The position numbers were made by a program, and so were the translations under genes. Shown here in pieces: positions 209 to 46,916 of a stretch of 53,298 bases of DNA. The DNA is taken from NCBI GenBank assembly GCA_903884235.1, contig CAISEB010000035.1:1-53298 (forward strand), in the 5' to 3' direction. Source of the stretch: an uncultured Pseudomonadota bacterium (GTDB lineage Bacteria; Pseudomonadota; Gammaproteobacteria; Steroidobacterales; Steroidobacteraceae). The notes under the pieces are model-generated. The model did no database searches, had not been told where the DNA came from, and saw nothing but the letters and a program-made list of their open reading frames with translations. The first letter of the stretch is position 1. The number at the start of each line of letters is the position of its first letter.

Positions 209-1567
209 TCAGGCCGGCTTCGAGCCTGCCGCCGCCCGCCGTGGAGCCGAACGCACCTCGGCCAACGCCTGGCGCCCCAAGACCCGGAACTCGTGCGACA
301 GGCGGTCATCCGCCACGATCCGTTCCCAGTAGGCTTCCGCGAGCTTGCTCGCCCTCGGCCATGCCGGGAGAGTCTCCGCGGTGGGGTTCGGCGCTTCGAA
401 TGCACGGTCGACGATCTGGTCGTTCGCCGGAGCAAAGAGCATCGGCAGCATGTCGTACACCGGCGCGAGGTCGAACCGGCCGTCGTAGCGATCGAACAGT
501 CCGAGATTGCCGAAGTGACGGTCCGTGTTCGCGATCAACCGCCCAAATGCCTCCAGCAGCCGGATCCGATCGACGTCCTCCTGGGAGAGGACCCGGTCCG
601 CGGCCAGTCTGATCGCGCAGTTCGGCCAGCGATCCAGCAGTCCGTAGCGAGCGACATCCAGCGCGAGGAGCGAGATGACGCCTCGGCGTCCCGCGGCGCC
701 GACCCGATCGAACCGCTCGACTTCCAGGAAGGACCGGCCGCCGAAGTCGAGGACGGAGGAGCGGCACGCTGGAATCCCGTGCGCCGCGAGATGCTCGTGC
801 GCGATGTGTTCGGCCAACAGCAGGTCGGCCCATCGCTGGCCGACGCGTGTCGCGCGAGGTGGCGAAAACTTCACGATGACCTGGGTCCCGGCCGCGCCGT
901 GGCCGACCAGTGCCGTGAACTTCGGATGCTCGCCATGCGCCGACGATCCCGGCGCGCTGCCGGCCATGGCCGCGTCTGCGAGCGCGGGATACGCCGATGC
1001 GCGGTCCCGAGCCGGAATCGCTTGCCGGGTGCGTATCGAGTCCAGGTGCCGCTCCAGCGCTTCGGCGCCCATGATCAGGTCGCTGACGGTGTCGGTGCCC
1101 CGTCGCGTGAGGTACGCGAGGTAGTGATCGTCGGTCCAGTCCACGGGTCGCGGCGGTAAAGCGAGCTCCGGCCAGGCGCTCGGTACCGTTCGACCGAGGA
1201 ACCCGCCGGGCCGCTGGTCCTGCAGGAAGTAGGGGATGCTGTCAGCGAGGCCACGGAGGCAGGCATTCCCGCTGTCGAAGTAGTAGTGGCGAGGCTCGAG
1301 GGCGTGGAGCCGCCCGAGTTCGGCGATGACGCCGTGTTCGTCGACCCGGAATACGGGCCAGCTGGAGCCGGAGCCGAGGATCGCGCGGCGCAGGCCATAC
1401 CGTGTACTGCGCGCGGCGCCGATCCGGACGACGCGACCTGCCCGCAGCGGCGGCTGCATCGCGCGGGATAGGACAGGCTGGGAAATCCCGAGCGCGCCGG
1501 TCAGCGCTGCCGCGCTGGCGGGGCCAGCGGCCAGCTGCTCGAACAGCGCCGACTCATGCCGTGTCAT
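209..1567 (-). CDS. Solitary HipA-like serine/threonine kinase with N-terminal HTH (YjjJ type)
   Basis: A 452-residue protein with a winged-helix-like N-terminus (about residues 1-65, AALTGALGISQPVLSRA) joined to a HipA-type kinase. HipA hallmarks are HPKFTALV (ATP-binding loop region), VKFSPP, the catalytic loop LIANTDRHFGNLGLF, and DLAPVYDMLPM in the metal-binding position. Architecture and length fit E. coli YjjJ, a one-gene HipA relative in which DNA-binding and kinase parts are fused, rather than a HipB/HipA pair. No antitoxin gene lies beside it. HipA proteins phosphorylate translation components such as glutamyl-tRNA synthetase; the target here is unknown. It sits next to an IS630 fragment and has an AT-rich promoter unlike its surroundings, which suggests acquisition. 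The ATG at 1567 is the only good start. Confidence 0.85.
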   Translation of the reverse strand: MTRHESALFEQLAAGPASAAALTGALGISQPVLSRAMQPPLRAGRVVRIGAARSTRYGLRRAILGSGSSWPVFRVDEHGVIAELGRLHALEPRHYYFDSGNACLRGLADSIPYFLQDQRPGGFLGRTVPSAWPELALPPRPVDWTDDHYLAYLTRRGTDTVSDLIMGAEALERHLDSIRTRQAIPARDRASAYPALADAAMAGSAPGSSAHGEHPKFTALVGHGAAGTQVIVKFSPPRATRVGQRWADLLLAEHIAHEHLAAHGIPACRSSVLDFGGRSFLEVERFDRVGAAGRRGVISLLALDVARYGLLDRWPNCAIRLAADRVLSQEDVDRIRLLEAFGRLIANTDRHFGNLGLFDRYDGRFDLAPVYDMLPMLFAPANDQIVDRAFEAPNPTAETLPAWPRASKLAEAYWERIVADDRLSHEFRVLGRQALAEVRSAPRRAAAGSKPA

Positions 1568-1771: not shown

Positions 1772-2962
1772 CTAGTCCTTCTTCCCCAGCGCAGCGCCCA
1801 CCCGACGATAGGCCTCGCGGAACGGAATGCCTTCCTCGACGACGAGGCGATTGGCCTGCTCCGCCGCATGGATGGCCGGATCGAGGGCGATGTTCCCGGG
1901 CCGGAACGCGACGCCGGCCAGCGCCGACGGCAGGATGTCGAGCGTCTGCAGCGCGAGGTCGATGCCGCGGAACAGGGGCGCCTTCAGCAACTGCAGGTCG
2001 CGCTGGTAGCCGCTCGGCAGCTTCGCGATGAGGCCGAGTGCCTCGGCGAGGCAGGCCTGCGCGGACATCGTGCGCCCGCGGATCAGCTCGAACACGTCCG
2101 GGTTGCGCTTCTGCGGCATGATCGAGGAACCCGTCGTGAACGCGTCCGGCAGCGACACGAATGCGAACTCCTGCGTATAGAACAGCAGCAGGTCCGAGGC
2201 GAGCCGCCCGAGGTCGGTCATCAGCAGCGCGATCTCGAACAGCACCTGCGCCTCGGCCTTGCCGCGCGACAGCTGCACGGCCGTCACCGGTTCGTGGTTG
2301 ACCGGGAAGTGCAGTGCCGCGCGAGTCACGTCGCGATCGAGCGGCAGGCCCGGGGTACCGTAGCCGGCCGCCGAGCCGAGCGGGTTGCGGCCGATCCGCC
2401 GGTGCGCGAGGCGCAGCCCCTCGGCGTCGTCGTGCACCTCGGCGGCGAAGCCGCCGGCCCACAGCGCCACGCTCGAGGGCATCGCCTGCTGCATGTGCGT
2501 GTATCCGGGTAGCGCGACGTCGCCGTGACGGGCCGCGAGCTCGTGCAGTGCGTCGGCGACGCCCTGCGCGCCCGCGCGCAGCTCCTCGACGGCGTCGCGC
2601 AAGTAGAGGCGAAGTGCGGTCAGCACCTGGTCGTTGCGCGACCGACCGAGGTGGATGCGGCCACCCGCCTCGCCCACCTTCGCCGTCAGCAGCGACTCGA
2701 TCGCGGTCTGGCCGTCTTCCTGCTCGAGCGTAACCCGCCACTCGCCACGCGCGTGCGACGCGGCGATCTCGCGCAGCGCCGCCGTCAGCGCCTCGAGATC
2801 CTCCGTCGCGAGCAGTCCCGCGGCGTGCAGGCCGGCGGCGTGCGCGATCGAGCCCTCGACATCGTAGGCGACCAGGCGATCGTCGAGCGCGTGGTCCTCG
2901 CCCGCGGTGTAGCGCAGGACCTTCGCGTCGAGCGGGGCGCCCTTGTCCCAGAGCCGTGTCAC
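1772..2962 (-). CDS. argH: Argininosuccinate lyase (short C-terminus)
   Basis: Last step of arginine synthesis: argininosuccinate to arginine plus fumarate. The 396-residue product shows the fumarase/ASL superfamily motifs: GRSRNDQV, LPGYTHMQ (catalytic His region) and the signature loop GSSIMPQKRNPD with the catalytic serine. The GTG start at 2962 overlaps the argB stop as GTGA, so translation is probably coupled. The protein ends shortly after PFREAYRRVGAALG. The E. coli enzyme (457 residues) continues about 50 residues further, so the small C-terminal region is missing or replaced. No frameshifted continuation is seen downstream. It is the last gene of the arginine operon. Confidence 0.93.
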   Translation of the reverse strand: MTRLWDKGAPLDAKVLRYTAGEDHALDDRLVAYDVEGSIAHAAGLHAAGLLATEDLEALTAALREIAASHARGEWRVTLEQEDGQTAIESLLTAKVGEAGGRIHLGRSRNDQVLTALRLYLRDAVEELRAGAQGVADALHELAARHGDVALPGYTHMQQAMPSSVALWAGGFAAEVHDDAEGLRLAHRRIGRNPLGSAAGYGTPGLPLDRDVTRAALHFPVNHEPVTAVQLSRGKAEAQVLFEIALLMTDLGRLASDLLLFYTQEFAFVSLPDAFTTGSSIMPQKRNPDVFELIRGRTMSAQACLAEALGLIAKLPSGYQRDLQLLKAPLFRGIDLALQTLDILPSALAGVAFRPGNIALDPAIHAAEQANRLVVEEGIPFREAYRRVGAALGKKD

Positions 2963-3894
2963 GGCACGGACCCGGGCTGCTGTTCCGCCGGCGACAGCGC
3001 CTTGACGTCGGCGACGATCAGCGTGCCGAGCCCCTCGTTGGTGAACACCTCGGCGAGCAGTGCGTCGGTCGACTTGAACGAGATCACGTGGACGCGGCGC
3101 ACGCCGCCGCGGATGGCGGCCTCGATCGCGTTCGCCTTCGGCATCATGCCGTCGGAGAAGCTGCCGCCCGCCTCGAGGCGCTTGAGTCCGGCGAGATCCG
3201 TGTAGGAGACGAGCGTCGAGGGGTCGGTGATGTCCTCGAAGATGCCCGTCGCGCCCGTGCACAGCAGCAGCTTCTCGGCGCCGAGCGCGGCACCGATGTT
3301 CGCGGCCACCGTGTCGGCGTTGATGTTGAGGAGGTTGCCCTTGTCATCGCACGACAGCGGGCTCACGACGGGCATGTAGCCGGCATCGAGCAGCTTCTCC
3401 AGGACGTCCGGATTGATCGCGTCGATGTCGCCGACCTGGCCGTAGTCGATGACCTTGCCGTCGGCAAGCTTGACCGGCGCGCGCTTGTGCGCCGCCACGA
3501 GCCCGCCGTCGACCCCGGAGATGCCGACCGCCTGGATGCCGAGGTCGCGGCAGATCCCAAGCAGGCGGGTGTTGAGCAGGCCGTTGAGCACCATCACCGT
3601 CACCTCGACGGTCTTCTCGTCGGTGACACGGCGGCCGTCGACCATCTTCGGCTCGAGCCCGAGCGAGCGCTGCATGTCGTCGAGCTGCGGGCCACCGCCG
3701 TGCACGAGCACGACGCGGATGCCGGTCTGGTGCAGGATCGCGACCTGCTCCATCAGCGAGCGGGTGGCGGCTTCGCTGGCAAAGATCGCGCCGCCGACCT
3801 TCACGACGAACACCTTGCCCTTGTACATGCGGATGTACGGGGCGGCATTGCGCATGGCACGGATCGCGACGGCTTGTTCGGGGCGGTAGCTCAT
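2959..3894 (-). CDS. argB: N-acetylglutamate kinase (possibly N-acylglutamate kinase)
   Basis: Amino-acid kinase family protein of 311 residues that phosphorylates the gamma-carboxyl of N-acylglutamate. Visible motifs are VVKVGGAIF (phosphate-binding), VLVHGGGPQLD (acyl-glutamate and ATP loop), NINADTVAANIGAALGAEKLLLCTGATG and the C-terminal SDGMMPKANAI. About 25 residues precede the first strand, comparable to the N-terminal helix that mediates arginine feedback in hexameric kinases, so feedback control is possible. In Xanthomonas this kinase is fused to an N-acetylglutamate synthase. Here it is a single-domain protein with no GNAT extension. It lies 47 bp after argF' and overlaps argH by 4 bp. 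Confidence 0.92.
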   Translation of the reverse strand: MSYRPEQAVAIRAMRNAAPYIRMYKGKVFVVKVGGAIFASEAATRSLMEQVAILHQTGIRVVLVHGGGPQLDDMQRSLGLEPKMVDGRRVTDEKTVEVTVMVLNGLLNTRLLGICRDLGIQAVGISGVDGGLVAAHKRAPVKLADGKVIDYGQVGDIDAINPDVLEKLLDAGYMPVVSPLSCDDKGNLLNINADTVAANIGAALGAEKLLLCTGATGIFEDITDPSTLVSYTDLAGLKRLEAGGSFSDGMMPKANAIEAAIRGGVRRVHVISFKSTDALLAEVFTNEGLGTLIVADVKALSPAEQQPGSVP

Positions 3895-3941: not shown

Positions 3942-4943
3942 TCAGGCCAGCAGGCGGTGCAGCACCGCCATCTGGACCACGAGCCGGTTGTGCGCCTCGT
4001 GCAGCACGACGCTGCGAGGTCCGTCGAGCACCTCCTCGGCGACCGCGACGTTGCGGCGGACCGGGAGGCAGTGCATCAGGTGGCAACTGGCGGCGGCGTC
4101 CTCGAAGGTGCGTCCGGTGACCTGCCAATGGCCGAGGTCGGCACGCAGGCGCGCGTCGCCGTCCGCATCGCCATAGTGGGTCGTCGAGCCCCACTCCTTG
4201 GCGTACAGGACCTGGGCGCCGGCGAGCGCCGTCGCGCGATCGTCGGTCTCGGTGACCGAGCCGCCGGAGAGCGCGGCCGCCGCGCGTGCCTTGTCCATCA
4301 CGGCCGCGGGCAGCGCGTAGCCCTCGGGGCGCGCGACGACGACATCGTGCCCGCGCAGCGCGGCCATGTGCAGCGCCGCGGCCGGCACCGCGAGCGGCAG
4401 GGCACGGGGGTGCGGTACCCACTGCAGCACGAACTTCGAGCGCGGCGCGACCGCGAGGTCGTCCAGCGTCTTCCAGTCCGCGAGCGCCTGGCACGGATGG
4501 TTGATGGCCGATTCCAGGTTGATGAGTGGCTTGTCGATGAGCGTCGCCATCGCCTTGAACCCCGCGTCCGAGACATCCGCGTCGAGGTTCTTGCCCTCCG
4601 CGAATGCGCGGATGCCGAGTGCGTCGCAGTACGAGGCGAGTACCGGCAGGCCCTCGCGGATGTGCTCCGCGGCGCCGCCGTCCATCGCGACGCCGAGTCG
4701 CGTCTCGAGCGCCCACGTGCCCTGGCCCGGCGTGATCACGAACGAGTTGCCGCCGAGGCGCGCCATGCCGGCCTGGAACGAGGCCAGCGTGCGCAGCGAC
4801 GGGTTCAGGAACACGAGGCCGAGGATCCTGCCGGCCAGCGCCTTCGGCTCCGGGTGCTGCTGCAGCCGGTCGGCGAGCGCGAGCAGGTCGAGGACCTCCT
4901 CGCGGCTGAAGTCAGCGAGATCGAGGAAGCGGGCGAGACTCAT
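3942..4943 (-). CDS. argF': N-acylornithine carbamoyltransferase (N-acetyl- or N-succinyl-ornithine type)
   Basis: A 333-residue transcarbamylase of the branch that carbamoylates N-acylornithine instead of ornithine, known from Xanthomonas (AOTCase) and Bacteroides (SOTCase). Carbamoyl-phosphate contacts are SLRT (49-52) and HPCQ (149-152), with HCLP at 291-294 and the family blocks VAMDGGAAEHI and NRLVVQMAVLHRLL. From memory of the Xanthomonas campestris sequence, residue 92 there is Glu and sets acetyl specificity. The gap-free equivalent here is Ala92, and Ala at that site was reported to switch the enzyme to N-succinylornithine. The lysine that becomes carboxylated in Xanthomonas (Lys302) is Ala300 here. 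The start overlaps the argD stop as ATGA. The substrate is therefore likely succinylornithine, but this is not proven. Confidence 0.9.
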   Translation of the reverse strand: MSLARFLDLADFSREEVLDLLALADRLQQHPEPKALAGRILGLVFLNPSLRTLASFQAGMARLGGNSFVITPGQGTWALETRLGVAMDGGAAEHIREGLPVLASYCDALGIRAFAEGKNLDADVSDAGFKAMATLIDKPLINLESAINHPCQALADWKTLDDLAVAPRSKFVLQWVPHPRALPLAVPAAALHMAALRGHDVVVARPEGYALPAAVMDKARAAAALSGGSVTETDDRATALAGAQVLYAKEWGSTTHYGDADGDARLRADLGHWQVTGRTFEDAAASCHLMHCLPVRRNVAVAEEVLDGPRSVVLHEAHNRLVVQMAVLHRLLA

Positions 4944-6103
4944 GCGGGCAGGTCCTTGAGGGCGGCCGCGAGCGCATCGACATGCGCGGCCTCGAGGGTG
5001 AACGGCGGCAGCAGGCGCACGATGTTCGGGTCGGCCGCGGTGCCGGCGAAGATGCCGCGCGCCATCAGCTCCTGCTGCACCTGCTTGGCCGGACGCGTCG
5101 TGCGCAGCCCGAGCAGGAGTCCCGCGCCCTGCACGCCGGTCACGGGACCCACGATGCAGCGCTCGCGGATCAGGCTCGACATGCGCTTCACGTTGTCGAG
5201 CAGGCCCTCGGACTCGATGATGTCGATGACCGTCTCGACGATCGCGCAGGCGAGCGGTCCGCCGCCGAACGTCGTGCCCATGTCCTCCGTCTTCAGTCGC
5301 GCCGCGACGTGCTTCGCGAGCAGCATCGCCGACACCGGGAAGCCGGCGCCGAGCGCCTTGGCGGTCGTCAGGATGTCCGGCGTCACGCCGGCGCGGTTCG
5401 CGCCGAACGGCCATCCGGTGCGGCCGACGCCGCACTGCACCTCGTCGAAGATCAGGTAGGCGCCGACTTCGTCGCAGCGGCGACGCAGCGCCTGGAGCAC
5501 CGCGACGGGCACCTCGTAGGCGCCGGCGAGGCCCTGTACCGGCTCGACGATCACGCACGCCGTGTCCTCGTCGATGCCGGCGACCGCGGCGTCGGGGTCG
5601 CTGCGCGACACCCAGCGCACGTCGAAGGGCGCCTGCGGGAACCCGTACCACTTCTCGCGCGCGCCCCACGTCACCGCGCCCGAGGCCGCGGTGCGGCCGT
5701 GCCAGCCCTGCTCGAGTGCCACGGCGGTACGGCGACCGGTGGCGCGGAATGCGAGGCGCAGTGCGTTCTCGTTTGCCTCGGCGCCGGAGTTCACGAAGAA
5801 GACGTCGTCGAGGCCCAGGCCGGCGAACCGCACCAGCCGCTCGGCGGCACGCTCGCGCACCGCCATGGGGATGGCGTTGGTCTGGAACAGCACCTCGCGT
5901 GCCTGGCGCTCCAGCGCCGCGACCCAGCGCGGGTGGCCGTAGCCGAGCGCGGCGACCGCATGGCCGCCGTAGTAGTCGAGGATCCGGCGGCCGTCGCGGG
6001 TCGTCAGCCAGACGCCTTCGGCGTGCACGACCTCGAGCGGGTACTGGGAGAACACGCGCGCGAGGTGGCTGGCGGCTGCGGATGGGGTCGGTGATGCGGC
6101 CAT
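4940..6103 (-). CDS. argD: Acetyl- (or succinyl-) ornithine aminotransferase
   Basis: Class III PLP aminotransferase of 387 residues converting N-acylglutamate semialdehyde to N-acylornithine. Motifs: VNSGAEANENALRLA (phosphate loop), IVEPVQG, YLIFDEVQCGVGRTG, and the PLP-binding lysine in TPDILTTAKALGAGFP (Lys249). The ATG at 6103 is preferred because AGGAAC lies about 8 bp upstream. A longer reading adds residues with no family similarity. It begins 22 bp after argC and overlaps argF' by four bases. Enzymes of this family accept both acetylated and succinylated substrates, so the sequence does not decide the acyl group. Confidence 0.92.
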   Translation of the reverse strand: MAASPTPSAAASHLARVFSQYPLEVVHAEGVWLTTRDGRRILDYYGGHAVAALGYGHPRWVAALERQAREVLFQTNAIPMAVRERAAERLVRFAGLGLDDVFFVNSGAEANENALRLAFRATGRRTAVALEQGWHGRTAASGAVTWGAREKWYGFPQAPFDVRWVSRSDPDAAVAGIDEDTACVIVEPVQGLAGAYEVPVAVLQALRRRCDEVGAYLIFDEVQCGVGRTGWPFGANRAGVTPDILTTAKALGAGFPVSAMLLAKHVAARLKTEDMGTTFGGGPLACAIVETVIDIIESEGLLDNVKRMSSLIRERCIVGPVTGVQGAGLLLGLRTTRPAKQVQQELMARGIFAGTAADPNIVRLLPPFTLEAAHVDALAAALKDLPA

Positions 6104-6125: not shown

Positions 6126-7193
6126 TCAGGTCCAGCCCGGCGCCGGTGCGGCCAGGCCCGTCGCCGGATCCCAGCCATGGATGCGGTTCAGCCACTGCAC
6201 GGCGCCGCCGGCGGCGCCCTTGGTGAGGTTGTCGAGCACGCTCATCACGGCCAGGGTCTTGCCGTTGGTGGTCGCCGAGAGCTCCGCGTAGTTGCTGCTG
6301 ACGACGTCCTTCATGCGCGGGGCATCGGCCTTCACGCGCACGAACGGATGGCCCGAGTAGAACCCGGCGAGTGCCTCGCGCACGTCCGCGCCCGACATCG
6401 GCCTGACGAGCCGCGCCTGCGTGGTGGCGTGGATGCCGCGCGCGAACGGACCCGAGTGCGGCACGAAGTTGAGCTCCGGCCGCAGTCCGGTGAGCCGCTC
6501 GACGATCGACACGACTTCCGGGGCATGCCTGTGGCCGAGCGCACCGTACGAGTACAGATCGCTATGGCGGCGCGGGTGGTGCGTGCCCTCGACGGGATTG
6601 CGGCCGGAGCCGGTGCTGCCCGTGACGGCACTGACATAGAACTCGGGCTCGACGAGGCCGAGCTGCGTCAGCGGCACGAGTGCGAGCAGCATCGCGGTCG
6701 CGAAGCAGCCCGGGTGTGCCACGTGCGGCGTCGTGAGCGTCGCCAGGTGCTCCGGTACAGCGCACGTGAATTCGGCCAGCCGCGCCGGGGCGCCGTGGGC
6801 GTGCCCGTAGACCGCGGCGTACGCGGCCGGATCCGCGAAGCGGTAGTCGGCGGAGATGTCGACGACGCGCGGCCGGGTGCCGGCGCCGGCGGCGGCGTCG
6901 AGCAGGCGGTCGATCAGCGCGGCCGACACGCCGTGCGGCGCGGCGGCGAGGATGGAGCACGCCGGCAGCGTCGTCACGAGCCGCAGGGCCTCCTCGGCGC
7001 CGACGAACGTCGTCTCGGGATAGGCCGGGGCCAGGTGCGGGAACGCCGCCGCGACCCGCTCGCCCGGCTTCGAGTCCGACACGACCGCGACGAGCTCGAG
7101 CCGCGGATGGCCCGCGATGAGCCGCAGCAGCTCGCCGGCGACGTAGCCGGTGCCGCCGAGGACGAGGGTCGGTTCGCGCGCCCTGTCGTTCAT
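6126..7193 (-). CDS. argC: N-acetyl-gamma-glutamyl-phosphate reductase
   Basis: NADPH-dependent reductase of 355 residues that turns N-acylglutamyl phosphate into the semialdehyde. It has an N-terminal Rossmann motif GGTGYVAGE (residues 13-21), the catalytic cysteine in HPGCFATAM (Cys163), SADYRF, and the family block TGSTGSGRNPVEGTHHPRRHSD. The start ATG overlaps the stop of the upstream P-loop gene as ATGA. Length and motifs are those of the normal long-form enzyme, and nothing suggests it is broken. The acyl group it handles in vivo depends on the rest of the operon. Confidence 0.94.
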   Translation of the reverse strand: MNDRAREPTLVLGGTGYVAGELLRLIAGHPRLELVAVVSDSKPGERVAAAFPHLAPAYPETTFVGAEEALRLVTTLPACSILAAAPHGVSAALIDRLLDAAAGAGTRPRVVDISADYRFADPAAYAAVYGHAHGAPARLAEFTCAVPEHLATLTTPHVAHPGCFATAMLLALVPLTQLGLVEPEFYVSAVTGSTGSGRNPVEGTHHPRRHSDLYSYGALGHRHAPEVVSIVERLTGLRPELNFVPHSGPFARGIHATTQARLVRPMSGADVREALAGFYSGHPFVRVKADAPRMKDVVSSNYAELSATTNGKTLAVMSVLDNLTKGAAGGAVQWLNRIHGWDPATGLAAPAPGWT

Positions 7194-8269
7194 TCGGTGG
7201 TCGGCTTGATCGGGAACTTGTCGGCGAGACCGGCGGCCGCGATCACGAGGTCGCCGAGCTCGAGTCCGTTCGTGATCGCGTTGCAGGCCTTGACGTTCAT
7301 CTGCTGCACGATGATGTCGACGCCGACCTGGTTGTCGGTCGCCGGGCCCGTGACCACGGTCGGCTCGACAAGGAACCGCTCGCGCAGCAGCTTCACGCCG
7401 CCCCACGCCGCCACCGGGTCGTTGGCCGACAGGATCACCCCCGTGAGCGCGCTCCTGATGTCGGCCGCCGCGAGGATTGCCTCGACGCCATAGGTCCCAA
7501 GCAGGCCGTCGCCGAGCTCGAACACGATGATGTCCGGCTGGCCCTGCGCCATTTCGGTGAGCATCGCCCGCGTCAGGGCGGGGCCGACCTTCGCGGTCGT
7601 GGTGCCGACGCCGAAGTCGGTGAAGATCATGGTCTTGCGCGCACCGGCATCCTCCATCGCGAGGATGTCACGGCGCAGCGACACGCCGGTCGCCTTGAAG
7701 GCGTGCACGGCGAGGCCGCGGTGGCGCATGCGCGCGATGATCGAGCAGGCGGCCGCGGTCTTGCCGGCTTCCATGCAAGTCCCGGCCAGCGCGATGACCG
7801 GCACGCCCTGGGTGTCGAGGGACGCGGCCAGGTCGAGGGGCCGGTAGCCGATGCGCGCCGGCACGCCGATGCGCTCGCCGAGGTACGGGAACTGCAGCAC
7901 GACGCCGAGCACGCGGCAGTCGAACGGGCGTCCCCGGTCCGGGTTCATCGAGTCGCACACGCCGAGCACGCCACCGATGTTGAGCATCTGGATGACGTCG
8001 CCGGGTTTCACGGCCTCGGGCACGTGCCCCGAGTAGCCGAACAGCGCCTTGCGATGGCCGAGGGCGCCAACGACGATGTCGCCCTTGACGACTTTCGCCA
8101 TGCGGCCGCTGGTGAGCTCGAGCGTGTTGTAGGTGTTCTTGTTGGTCAGCACCTCGACGACGATGACGACGCCCTCCTCGCAGGGGATGTCCTCGGAGAT
8201 GCGCAACTCGTGGCCGAGTCCGCAGGCCTGCGTGATCGAGCCGATCTTGTCGACGACGACTGACTTCAC
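7190..8269 (-). CDS. P-loop protein related to DUF1611/DgcN, inside the arg operon; candidate N-acylglutamate synthase
   Basis: A 359-residue protein that is not a classical arginine enzyme. Residues 1-145 are a beta-rich domain with no family I recognise. The C-terminal half carries a P-loop GTCMEAGKT (163-171), then FKATG (191-195), a DFG at 218-220, and ELGDGLL (251-257). The same order GT-M--GK, F-ATG, DF--G, E-G--LL occurs in the C-terminal domain of DUF1611 proteins. One member, DgcN, is known to acetylate D-glutamate with acetyl-CoA. The gene is embedded between argG and argC with 4-bp overlaps on both sides (GTGA and ATGA), and the operon has no argA or argJ. I infer it makes the N-acyl-glutamate that starts the pathway. 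A regulatory or chaperone role remains possible. Start is GTG at 8269. Confidence 0.6.
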   Translation of the reverse strand: MKSVVVDKIGSITQACGLGHELRISEDIPCEEGVVIVVEVLTNKNTYNTLELTSGRMAKVVKGDIVVGALGHRKALFGYSGHVPEAVKPGDVIQMLNIGGVLGVCDSMNPDRGRPFDCRVLGVVLQFPYLGERIGVPARIGYRPLDLAASLDTQGVPVIALAGTCMEAGKTAAACSIIARMRHRGLAVHAFKATGVSLRRDILAMEDAGARKTMIFTDFGVGTTTAKVGPALTRAMLTEMAQGQPDIIVFELGDGLLGTYGVEAILAAADIRSALTGVILSANDPVAAWGGVKLLRERFLVEPTVVTGPATDNQVGVDIIVQQMNVKACNAITNGLELGDLVIAAAGLADKFPIKPTTE

Positions 8270-9498
8270 TTGCGATCTCCCGCGTTCTGGCCGGCCCGGG
8301 TGTGGAACATCCCGGTGAGTGCCAGCATCTTCGAATAGCCGAGCGCGTCGGCCGGCGACCACTCGCCGGCGGCTTCGCCGTAGACGCCCTTGGACGCGGC
8401 CATCAGCGAGTACGGCGAGGTGACGCCCTCGACGAACAGGCTGCCGGGCCGGAACAGCACCTTGACCTCGCCGGTCACGCGCTGCTGCGAGGAGACCAGC
8501 AGCGCCTCGATGTCGCGGCACACGGGATCCAGGTGGTGACCCTCGTGCACGAGGTCGCCGTACGGCGCCGCGACGAGGTCCTTGATCCGCGTCTGGCGGC
8601 CGGTGAGCACGAGCTTCTCGAGCTCGCGATGCGCCGTCAGCAGCACGTCGGCGGCCGGTGCCTCGAAGGCCACGCGGCCCTTGGTGCCGATCACCGTGTC
8701 GCCGAGGTGGATGCCGCGGCCGATGCCGAACGGCGCCGCGAGCGTCTCGAGCCGCTCGATCAGCGCGACCGGATCGAGCGCGGCGCCATCGAGCGAGCAG
8801 GGCACGCCCTTGTCGAAGCCGATAACATGGCGCTCAGGCGCGCGCGGGTTCGTGAACGCGTCCCGCGACAGCACCCATGCGGCGTCCGGGATGCTGCCGT
8901 CCGAGGTCAGCGTCTCCTTGCCACCGATCGTGACGCCCCAGAGTCCGCGGTTGACCGAGTACGCGGCGCCGTAGGGTGGCACGGGCAGCTTGCGCTCCTC
9001 GAGGAAGGCGAGCTGCTCGGGGCGCTTGAACGCCCGGTCGCGCACCGGCGCGAGGATCTCGAGGCCGGGCGCGAGCGTGCGCAGCGCGACCTCGAAGCGG
9101 ACCTGGTCGTTGCCGGCGGCGGTGCAGCCATGGGCGACGGACGGCGCGCCGAGCGTGGTCGCCATCTCGGCGATCATCTGTGCCTGCAGCACGCGCTCGG
9201 CGCCGACGCAGAACGGGTACAGCTGGCCGCGGCGCGCGTTGCCGATCAGCAGGTAGCGCAGCACGCGATCGAAATACGCGGGCTTCGCGGCGACCAGATG
9301 ATGCGCGCTCGCACCGAGCTCATGGGCACGCGCCTCGAGCGTCGCCGCGGCCGCCGCGTCGATGCCGCCGGTATCGACCGTGACGGTGATCACCGGTCGG
9401 CCGTAGGTTTCCTTCAGCCACGGCACGCAGAACGACGTGTCGAGGCCACCGGAGAATGCGAGCAGGATGGGCTTGGCGCCCGTGTCGGAGGTCGTCAT
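8266..9498 (-). CDS. argG: Argininosuccinate synthase
   Basis: A 410-residue ATP-dependent ligase joining citrulline and aspartate. The N-terminal PP-loop AFSGGLDTS (residues 14-22) binds ATP. Further family blocks are HGCTAAGNDQVRFEV and LAPVRDRAF. The protein is complete. It follows argR by 9 bp and its stop overlaps the GTG of the next gene, so it is the first enzyme gene of the operon. In the acylornithine route the enzyme needs free citrulline, so a deacylase must act on acetyl- or succinyl-citrulline first. None is present in the operon. Confidence 0.93.
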   Translation of the reverse strand: MTTSDTGAKPILLAFSGGLDTSFCVPWLKETYGRPVITVTVDTGGIDAAAAATLEARAHELGASAHHLVAAKPAYFDRVLRYLLIGNARRGQLYPFCVGAERVLQAQMIAEMATTLGAPSVAHGCTAAGNDQVRFEVALRTLAPGLEILAPVRDRAFKRPEQLAFLEERKLPVPPYGAAYSVNRGLWGVTIGGKETLTSDGSIPDAAWVLSRDAFTNPRAPERHVIGFDKGVPCSLDGAALDPVALIERLETLAAPFGIGRGIHLGDTVIGTKGRVAFEAPAADVLLTAHRELEKLVLTGRQTRIKDLVAAPYGDLVHEGHHLDPVCRDIEALLVSSQQRVTGEVKVLFRPGSLFVEGVTSPYSLMAASKGVYGEAAGEWSPADALGYSKMLALTGMFHTRAGQNAGDRK

Positions 9499-9507
9499 GG
9501 GCAGCCT

Positions 9508-10005
9508 TCAGCGGGCAGCGAGGGAGCGGACGCGGTCGAGCAGGGCGCGCTGGCTGCGGGCGCTCTCGGTCGCGATGAAGATCGTGTCGTCGCCGGAGAT
9601 CGTGCCGATGACCTCGGGCCAGCGGGCCCGGTCGATCGCCAGCGCGACACTCTGGGCCGAGCCGATGGTCGTGCGTACGACCGTCAGGTGCGGTCCGGCG
9701 GGCACCGCCTCCTGCACGAACGTGGACACCGCGCGCAGGTCCGCCACCGGCGCCGTCGCGTTCTCGGGCAGCACGTAGCGATCGCCGACCTTGGCGACGC
9801 CGAGGTCGCGCAGGTCGCGGCTGACGCTGGACTGGGTGACGTCGAAGCCCGCACGCTTGAGCAGCCGCACGAGCTCGACCTGCCGCCCGACGGCGCCGTC
9901 GCGGATGATCCGGCGCAGCGCCTCGCGGCGTTCGTCGTGCGCCCGGGTCGAGCCCGGGAAGTGTGGTGAGGCGGTACTATGCATAAAGTTGCAAGAGTCT
10001 TGCAT
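9508..10005 (-). CDS. argR: Arginine repressor
   Basis: ArgR/AhrC family regulator with an N-terminal winged helix (LLKRAGFDVTQSSVSRDLRDLGVAKV) and a C-terminal oligomerisation and arginine-binding domain containing GTISGDDTIFIA. ArgR hexamers bind DNA with arginine as corepressor. Two starts are possible: ATG at 10005 (165 residues) and ATG at 9984 (158 residues). Both sit inside the large dyad operator and neither has a convincing ribosome binding site. The shorter form matches normal ArgR length better. It is the first gene of the operon, so it should control its own synthesis along with the pathway. Confidence 0.9.
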   Translation of the reverse strand: MQDSCNFMHSTASPHFPGSTRAHDERREALRRIIRDGAVGRQVELVRLLKRAGFDVTQSSVSRDLRDLGVAKVGDRYVLPENATAPVADLRAVSTFVQEAVPAGPHLTVVRTTIGSAQSVALAIDRARWPEVIGTISGDDTIFIATESARSQRALLDRVRSLAAR

Positions 10006-12576: not shown

Positions 12577-13137
12577 CTAGCCGGGTTCCCCGCCGCGCTT
12601 CTCGCGTTCGCAGAGCGAGCAGTCGGCGCCCTGGGCGCGGAGCGTGTCGACGACCATGAAGGCACCGCAGGACGGGCAGGCGCCCGGCCTGAGCTCGCCG
12701 CGCGCCTGCAGCGCCTGCAGCAGCGAGCAGGCGTGCTCGAACGAGATCCGGTGCGGCTGGTTCAGCTCCACGTAGGTCTCGTAGGTGCGGCAGAACTGCT
12801 CGCCCCACTGCAGCGCGCCCTGGCCGGCCACGCGCGTCGTCGGCGGCGCCTTCGCCAGCAGGCCGAGGATCGAGTAGAGCCCGCCGAGCGCCGACGCATG
12901 CCGACGGGCCTCGAGGTTCTTGAGGAAGTAGCCGACGTGGCTCGGCGACTTGCCGCGCCGGCGCTTCACGTCGGGGCCCAGATCCGCAACATAGGACCGG
13001 TACAGCTTGCGGATGCGGTCGTCCGTCAGGCCCGTCCAGGTTCGGATCGTGCAGGTGCGGGCCTCGTGCCGGATCATCCGGAGCGCGAGGTCGAAACGTT
13101 GCCGGTCGCGGCTGTAGCGATCGTCCGTGATGCGCAT
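12577..13137 (-). CDS. FlhC-like transcription activator, without FlhD
   Basis: A 186-residue protein resembling the flagellar master regulator subunit FlhC. The N-terminal part ARTCTIRTWTGLTDDRIRKLYRSY matches the FlhC region that follows its first helices. The C-terminus has the zinc site Cys154-x2-Cys157 ... Cys173-x2-Cys176 (CPSCGAF and CSLCE). FlhC normally acts only as an FlhD4C2 complex, but no flhD or flagellar gene is in the window, so this may be a repurposed stand-alone regulator. It is divergent from the gene at 13263, sharing a palindrome-rich promoter, and precedes nudC by 28 bp. Confidence 0.75.
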   Translation of the reverse strand: MRITDDRYSRDRQRFDLALRMIRHEARTCTIRTWTGLTDDRIRKLYRSYVADLGPDVKRRRGKSPSHVGYFLKNLEARRHASALGGLYSILGLLAKAPPTTRVAGQGALQWGEQFCRTYETYVELNQPHRISFEHACSLLQALQARGELRPGACPSCGAFMVVDTLRAQGADCSLCEREKRGGEPG

Positions 13138-45506: not shown

Positions 45507-46916
45507 TCACTGGTCGGCGTACAGCTTCACGAGTCGGTACAGGAACGTGCGGCCGTCGTAGACCGACTTCACCGGGATGCGTTCGTTCAGGCCGTGGATG
45601 TGGCCGCCGTCCGCATCCGTGAACAGGCCCGTGACGCCGTAGGTCGGGATGCCCGCCGGGTTCAGGAACTGGGCGTCCGACGCGCCGGGCTCCAGCGCCG
45701 GCACGACGGGCACGCCGGGCCAGATCTCCCCGGCCACCTGCTCGATCGGGCCCATGACCCGGCGGGTGAGCGGCGCCGGCGGCGCGATCGGGCCGCGCAC
45801 CTCGGGGATCGTGACGGCGACCGCCGGGTCGTCGGCCAGCTTCGCCAGCTGCAGCCGCACCTCCTCGCGCGACACGCCCGGCACGATGCGGCAATTGATG
45901 TTGGCGCGCGCCCGCTGCGGCAGGGCGTTCGTGGCGTGCCCGGCCGACAGCATCGTCGCGACGCAGGTCGTGCGCAGCATCGCGTGCCAGTTGGGCTCCC
46001 GGTCGAGCACGGCGACCGCGGCCGCATCCATCGGGTTCCTGACGACCGCCGCCATCGCGGCGCCATCCGCGCCGCCGATGATCTTCGACATGCCCGTGAA
46101 GAACCCGCGGCTGGCGTCGCCGAGATCTACCGGGAACTCGTAGCGGCTGACCCGGTCGACCGCCCGCACCAGGTGGTATATCGCGTTGTCGGGGAGCGGC
46201 CGCGAACTGTGCCCGCCCGCGTTGGTCACCTCGAACGTGTAGTTCTGCGAGATTTTCTCCGCTGCGAGGATGCCGAGCGAGACCGGCTTGCCCTTCTCGT
46301 CGAGCGTGCCGTCGACGCCCTCGGTCAGCGCGAACTCCGCGTCGATCGCCTCGCGCGCGTGCTGAGTCAGCCACTCGGCACCGTTCAGGGCGCCGTTGGT
46401 CTCCTCGCCGCAGGTCAGCGCGAGCTTGATCGTGCGCTTCGGCCGGAAGCCCGACTCGCGGTAACGGATCAGGTTGTCGACCCAGATCGCGGCCTGCGCC
46501 TTCATGTCCGCCGTGCCGCGGGCGTAGAAGTAGCCGTCCTCCTCGATCAGCGTGAACGGATCGCGCGTCCAGTCCTCGCGCTTCGCCTCGACGACGTCGA
46601 CGTGCGCGAGCATCAGGATCGCCTTGGCGTCCGGCTTCGAGCCGTGCAGCACGGCGATCAGCCCGCCTTCCTTCGGGTGGCCGTCCGGGACGAAGATCCT
46701 GAGGTCCTCGTCCGGGTAGCCGGCTGACTTCAGTCGCGCGGCCATGCGTGTCGCGGCGAGCGTGCAGTCACCGGACGACAAGGTCGTGTTCGTCTCGATG
46801 AGTTCCTTGTAGATCGCGCGGAAACGGTCGCGCCCGTCGGCATCCGCCGTTGGTGCGGCATGCGCCGTCGAGGACGCCAATGCGACCAAGGCCAGCAGGA
46901 TCGATCGGCTCGTCAT
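45507..46916 (-). CDS. Exported M20-family metallopeptidase
   Basis: A 469-residue zinc peptidase with a signal peptide (MTSRSILLALVALASSTAHA). The M20 ligands and catalytic residues are visible in LAHVDVVEA, RGTADMKAQAA and LTCGEETNG, and a lid domain contains AGGHSSRP. M20 includes carboxypeptidases, aminoacylases and ArgE/DapE, but the signal peptide argues against a cytoplasmic ArgE role. It is the last gene of the ThDP-NAT-M20 minus-strand group. Confidence 0.9.
   Translation of the reverse strand: MTSRSILLALVALASSTAHAAPTADADGRDRFRAIYKELIETNTTLSSGDCTLAATRMAARLKSAGYPDEDLRIFVPDGHPKEGGLIAVLHGSKPDAKAILMLAHVDVVEAKREDWTRDPFTLIEEDGYFYARGTADMKAQAAIWVDNLIRYRESGFRPKRTIKLALTCGEETNGALNGAEWLTQHAREAIDAEFALTEGVDGTLDEKGKPVSLGILAAEKISQNYTFEVTNAGGHSSRPLPDNAIYHLVRAVDRVSRYEFPVDLGDASRGFFTGMSKIIGGADGAAMAAVVRNPMDAAAVAVLDREPNWHAMLRTTCVATMLSAGHATNALPQRARANINCRIVPGVSREEVRLQLAKLADDPAVAVTIPEVRGPIAPPAPLTRRVMGPIEQVAGEIWPGVPVVPALEPGASDAQFLNPAGIPTYGVTGLFTDADGGHIHGLNERIPVKSVYDGRTFLYRLVKLYADQ

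Follow-up and report, generated by a model that had tools for sequence, protein, structure and literature searches.

A P-loop protein of the Steroidobacteraceae arginine operon is predicted to be an N-acylglutamate synthase, probably of the succinyl type

The window analysed here is a 53,298-nucleotide stretch of DNA from an uncultured member of the Steroidobacteraceae (contig CAISEB010000035.1), and it contains an arginine operon in which one unassigned gene, here termed gene X, lies between argG and argC (Table 1). Gene X very probably encodes the N-acylglutamate synthase of the pathway, with a fold that differs from that of the usual enzymes for the first step. We are fairly confident in predicting that it caps the amino group of L-glutamate with an acyl group, most likely succinyl; a succinyl cap is more likely than an acetyl cap. 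Gene order, co-occurrence, the absence of the tested synthases, the succinyl-type residues and the P-loop fold, as described below, were all computed here. An earlier interpretation from the letters of the DNA (the sequence-only reading) had proposed the gene as the missing N-acylglutamate synthase and placed it in DUF1611. The role and the motifs stand, but the assignment to DUF1611 was premature and a second gap in the operon was overlooked.

The genes of the operon were identified by Pfam and NCBIfam profile searches. An acyltransferase is missing, as had been claimed: argB carries no fusion, and no acetyltransferase match was found in the 305 residues of ArgB that were scanned. However, the operon also lacks a deacylase, so that there are two gaps to fill and a single unassigned gene. 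Among 60 related genomes, the window's own included, 48 have an X ortholog (E below 1e-140), nine have the NAT acetyltransferase domain, none has both, and three have neither (G045, G048 and G058, which also lack a good match to the operon carbamoyltransferase); G039 and G043 match only in the manner of family P, the relatives of X described below. Fisher's test of this exclusion gives p values of 1.5e-8 (genomes) and 0.007 (family labels), uncorrected for descent. Of 369 sampled genomes of the class, four had NAT above cut-off, none of them among the nine with an arginine-type X. ArgJ was found in none of the 60 genomes, while the same model matches 10 of 14 control genomes. ArgA above cut-off was likewise found in 0/60, with just 1/14 controls exceeding it. 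The ArgA model does match 57 of the 60 genomes, for the most part by way of kinase sequence; matches to its acetyltransferase part occur at scattered sites in 15 of the 48 X genomes and are absent (E 0.001) from the other 33. In the four distant X genomes described below, there are likewise just unfused kinase matches, or short acetyltransferase matches that do not reach the cut-off. A normal argA or argJ elsewhere in the genome had been named as the finding that would count against the proposal, and the window's own genome is one of these 60. Gene X is present, then, in the arginine operons of genomes without the tested synthases (ArgA, ArgJ and NAT; GNAT enzymes of the ArgA2 type, discussed below, lie outside these tests). 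In relatives without X, glutamate is acylated by the bifunctional NAGS-K of the Xanthomonas type (ArgB-NAT, PF04768), which like X lies between argG and argC. Unlike X, it is a kinase-acetyltransferase fusion, and its operons also have an M20 deacylase gene and a carbamoyltransferase with residues of the acetyl type.

The proposed survey of argC and argG linkage covered 80 X loci in public genomes, which are related to one another and in some cases contribute more than one locus. There, argC follows X within 400 bp at 80/80 loci and argG precedes it within the same distance at 78/80; in the two exceptions, the matched argG segment is 434 bp away (L057) or argG gave no match (L059). The Povalibacter uvarum ortholog of X is at L042:10001-11080. 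Two of the loci with an X-type arginine operon (L052 and L086) are on metagenome records titled Klebsiella pneumoniae, and these titles look wrong. Within the class sample, 28 genomes have an X match. Nine of these, the window's own among them, are of the arginine type; the other 19, whose neighbourhoods were viewed in part, have only a family-P-like match of 27–33% identity. Four of the nine are distant (41–43% identity to X over the full length). In all four, X lies between argG and argC, and the order argD-argF-argB-argH-argG-X-argC with a divergent argR is readable in three, the fourth contig being too short. A sample of 398 genomes of the phylum gave 27 matches, strong in the window's own genome and in G673; the remainder are three family-P-like matches (90 to 148 bits) and 22 partial matches to the P-loop region at no more than 23 bits. 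G673 belongs to another class and has a minimal cluster, argR-X-argC-argB (L311:7089-10739), with argD, F, G and H not adjacent, which links X with the opening three steps of the pathway. In the tree, where support in this part is full, its X is nested among Steroidobacteraceae sequences, which suggests that these three steps were transferred horizontally as a unit.

The identity of the acyl group can be approached through the carbamoyltransferase of the operon. By the published rule, in Xanthomonas campestris numbering, the acetyl enzyme is marked by Glu92, Asn185 and Lys302, and the succinyl enzyme by A/S/P/V/Q at 92, P at 185 and V/I/E at 302 (PMC4581275). According to the GapMind work, preference for the succinylated compound results when the first of these positions holds S, P, A or V, and this is the basis for assigning the succinylated arginine route to Bacteroidetes (PMC7311316). 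Among 76 X operons with a carbamoyltransferase match of more than 250 residues, position 92 is Ala and position 185 is Pro without exception; the window enzyme has Ala, Pro and Ala at 92, 185 and 302, the last being a residue that the rule gives for neither type. The three distant X operons have Pro, Pro and Val at 92, with Pro at 185 and Glu at 302 in each. In the 12 NAT operons, 92 is Glu and 185 Asn in every case, and 302 is Lys in 11 and Gln in one. The fit of residues 92 and 185 in X operons to the succinyl rule favours a succinyl cap. An Arg178 is described as an anchor of the succinyl group in the Bacteroides fragilis enzyme (PMC4581275). At position 182, Arg is found in 64 of the 76 X operons and Lys in 11 of the 12 NAT operons. 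We take this position to correspond to the B. fragilis arginine. It is unlikely that X performs the same step with an acetyl cap and acetyl-CoA as donor, as DgcN does, given that residues 92 and 185 are of the succinyl type in 79/79 X operons. Two NAT genomes (G040 and G051; L213 and L214) have a second carbamoyltransferase-like gene, atypical at several substrate positions.

In the pathway proposed here, X would carry out the first committed step by acylating, most likely succinylating, the amino group of L-glutamate. ArgB would phosphorylate and ArgC reduce the N-acylglutamate, the aminotransferase would give N-acylornithine and the carbamoyltransferase N-acylcitrulline. The cap would be removed by a deacylase encoded elsewhere, for which DapE is a candidate, and ArgG and ArgH would complete arginine. 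We infer this reaction of X and its succinyl group, together with the acyl donor, which would be succinyl-CoA, or ATP plus succinate.

The second gap in the operon allows the roles to be exchanged: X could be the missing deacylase, with N-acylcitrulline or N-acylornithine as its substrate, while an unrecognised GNAT elsewhere serves as the synthase. An ArgE-like M20 gene, lacking in X operons, is found between argG and argB in all 12 NAT operons, and X occupies the argG-argC stretch where that gene is located. However, the fold of X is of P-loop type, with a conserved Walker A motif, and not that of a metallohydrolase, P1 relatives (see below) adjoin an M20 hydrolase of their own at eight loci, as if the two were partners, and G673 retains X with only argB and argC. 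In addition, M20 searches of seven X genomes identified DapE (succinyl-diaminopimelate desuccinylase) in six (G000, G024, G041, G050, G344 and G098), the M20 proteins of the seventh, G176, falling outside the classification. On these grounds a deacylase function is quite improbable. A search of 91 X loci, many of them short and some too short to show the neighbourhood, gave M20-like matches at six (L009, L010, L013, L015, L017 and L018), each about 2.4 kb or more past argH. The sole other M20 match in G041 (1.6 Mb) is a 488-residue protein with a signal sequence, as judged by eye, and the window's own genome has 14 M20 matches, few of them classified. At a guess, the candidate DapE would remove succinyl from N-succinylcitrulline, which fits these observations. 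An M20 peptidase match with an apparent signal sequence, again by eye, is present in the window itself (45525-46610, minus strand), far from the arginine operon.

The coordinates of X agree with those first given, the strand, then unstated, being minus; the plus-strand reading contains a stop. Translational overlap on both sides was confirmed: the GTG start (8269) lies in the argG stop (GTGA), and the X stop in the argC ATG (ATGA). The motifs are found where they had been placed, G163-T-x-M166-xx-G169-K170-T171, F191-K192-A-T-G195, D218-F-G220 and E251-x-G253-D-G255-L-L257. In an alignment of 81 sequences (the window and 80 loci), G163, M166, G169, K170, T171, F191-G195, D218, G220, E251 and G253-G255 are invariant, so that these motifs are not due to chance. 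The N-terminal domain (residues 1-145) is beta-rich, as had been stated, and has no Pfam match above cut-off. It is as conserved as the C-terminal domain and is found in clades P1 and P2 as well.

No Pfam or NCBIfam family matches X above cut-off, and ArgA, ArgJ and NAT-type synthase families are absent from its matches. The nearest profile models, of P-loop type, are MobB (16.8 bits) and DUF1611 (PF07755), the latter at 13.4 bits for X and 16.8 and 15.9 bits for two distant members, below the gathering threshold of 25 bits. Neither DUF1611_N (PF17396, Pfam) nor the NCBIfam DgcN model NF041892 matches X up to E 10. In profile-profile comparison, X and DUF1611 have only the P-loop stretch in common (probability 12.8%), whereas X and family P match over the full length (probability 100). 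The nearest solved sequence is dethiobiotin synthetase (E 0.33, with a ten-member X alignment), aligned over Walker A and up to Lys192. Of the DUF1611 assignment, then, the C-terminal fold and motif order stand but membership does not. The C-terminal domain of X has the P-loop fold of the DUF1611 C-terminal domain (structures 7xrj, 2obn and 2g0t), which is the structural match that had been asked of it. DgcN, which N-acylates glutamate, has this fold and the motif order GT..GK, F[KR]ATG, E.G.G in common with X. Its N-terminal domain, however, is the Rossmann-like DUF1611_N, its operons differ, and a weak profile alignment sets Lys and Arg of the DgcN-like protein against Thr171 and Lys192 of X.

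On contig C23 of the window's own genome (L189:6991-8978), a DgcN-like protein (417.2 bits, cut-off 480), with DUF1611_N at 80.5 bits, lies beside DgcA (405 bits, cut-off 400); this is a D-glutamate catabolism pair, apart from the arginine operon. X was therefore rejected as DgcN, the DUF1611 match being confined to the P-loop at sub-cut-off scores and the genome's own DgcN-like/DgcA pair sitting elsewhere. It is scarcely credible that X is simply a DUF1611/DgcN protein for D-glutamate catabolism, in the operon by chance: motif order and fold are shared, but DUF1611_N is unmatched and DgcA is not adjacent.

The fold group includes DgcN (titled an N-acetyltransferase), CTP synthase and dethiobiotin synthetase, the last two of which form C-N bonds using ATP. 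X has the fold of the BioD/CTP synthase class and a canonical Walker A GxxxxGKT, and its ligase-like active-site set is fully conserved. BioD and the synthetase domain of CTP synthase differ from it in pathway and N-terminal domain, and there is no family membership at the sequence level. X might tentatively be regarded as an ATP-dependent N-succinylglutamate ligase, converting succinate to an acyl phosphate in the BioD/CTP synthase manner and joining it to L-glutamate. Arginine synthesis would then open with an amide ligase rather than a CoA-dependent acyltransferase, and the sister clades P1 and P2 would likewise be amide ligases, in one unnamed superfamily with X. Among related P-loop folds and profiles are also maturation proteins such as HypB and MobB, which would suit an accessory or regulatory protein of the arginine enzymes that makes no N-acylglutamate. 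Such a role is very unlikely, as X exclusively replaces a catalytic domain and its active-site set is intact.

Several observations weigh against X as a succinyl-type synthase. Both synthase and deacylase are missing from X operons, so that X could be either, and no activity, knockout or growth data on X were found. The counts for X are not independent, the genomes being related and some loci coming from the same one. Position 302, for which the rule gives V/I/E in the succinyl enzyme, is Ala in 68/76 X operons and Val in 8/76, and all three distant X operons have Lys182, as in NAT operons. The window carbamoyltransferase as a whole scores higher against the acetyl enzyme (216 bits) than against the succinyl enzyme (185 bits), and exceeds the cut-off of the acetyl-enzyme model. 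G344, of the distant group, also encodes a true ArgE. Finally, the window's own genome has 28 GNAT matches, so that an unrelated GNAT synthase is possible, as proposed for Bacteroides ArgA2.

Corynebacterium glutamicum reportedly uses another type of enzyme for the first step (PMC3827942), and no P-loop enzyme for it was among the results of the literature searches made here. ArgA2 (BT3761) of Bacteroidetes has been proposed as an N-succinylglutamate synthase, and ArgA3, a deacetylase homolog, is another replacement (PMC9026213). ArgA2 resembles X in its proposed step and in the succinylated arginine route, but it is a GNAT-family protein and X a P-loop protein. If X is the synthase, a route that the sources consulted describe for Bacteroidetes would here be opened by an enzyme of a fold that they do not report for the step. 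Most of the window's relatives in the sample (Povalibacter, Peristeroidobacter and numerous uncultured bacteria) would use this route. The opening step of a core pathway would have been displaced along with the acyl group, the deacylase and the carbamoyltransferase specificity. Automated annotation would show a first-step gap in X bacteria, or call them arginine auxotrophs.

X, P1 and P2 are each separated from the rest by a single branch in an unrooted tree of 40 sequences. Among 24 P loci, an M20 hydrolase is nearby in eight (seven of these also with a flavin-reductase-like protein), an ABC transporter in 14, and neither in two. P1 is related to X over the full length and belongs to a conserved gene set that includes the M20 hydrolase (L200:8399-11246, L209:5824-8661 and L312:8133-10341). 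P2, also a full-length relative, has the ABC transporter nearby (L205:6688-9476, L207, L204 and L180) and is possibly an enzyme making an exported compound. This P-loop superfamily has at least three clades, with no tested member above a Pfam or NCBIfam cut-off, and X, if the assignment is true, would give it a first functional handle.

Table 1. Arginine operon of the window and parts of gene X
Feature	Position	Strand	Remarks
argR, arginine repressor, first gene of cluster	9508..10005	minus	Pfam/NCBIfam
argG, argininosuccinate synthase	8266..9498	minus	stop overlaps X start
gene X, candidate N-acyl- (probably N-succinyl-) L-glutamate synthase	7190..8269	minus	359 aa, GTG start
X N-terminal beta-rich domain, residues 1-145	7835..8269	minus	
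X C-terminal P-loop domain, residues 154-359	7193..7810	minus	CTP synthase/DUF1611/dethiobiotin synthetase fold group
X Walker A GTCMEAGKT, residues 163-171	7757..7783	minus	
argC, N-acyl-gamma-glutamyl-phosphate reductase	6126..7193	minus	start overlaps X stop
argD-type class III aminotransferase	4940..6103	minus	Pfam/NCBIfam
N-acylornithine carbamoyltransferase (AOTCase/SOTCase type)	3942..4943	minus	Ala92/Pro185 (Xanthomonas numbering)
argB, N-acylglutamate kinase without acetyltransferase domain	2959..3894	minus	
argH, argininosuccinate lyase	1772..2962	minus	Pfam/NCBIfam

Just past argH, the window encodes a HipA-like protein (209-1567, minus strand; HipA_C 73.6 bits). A small protein at 12577-13137, also on the minus strand, has a weak FlhC-like match (25.3 bits; cut-off 27).
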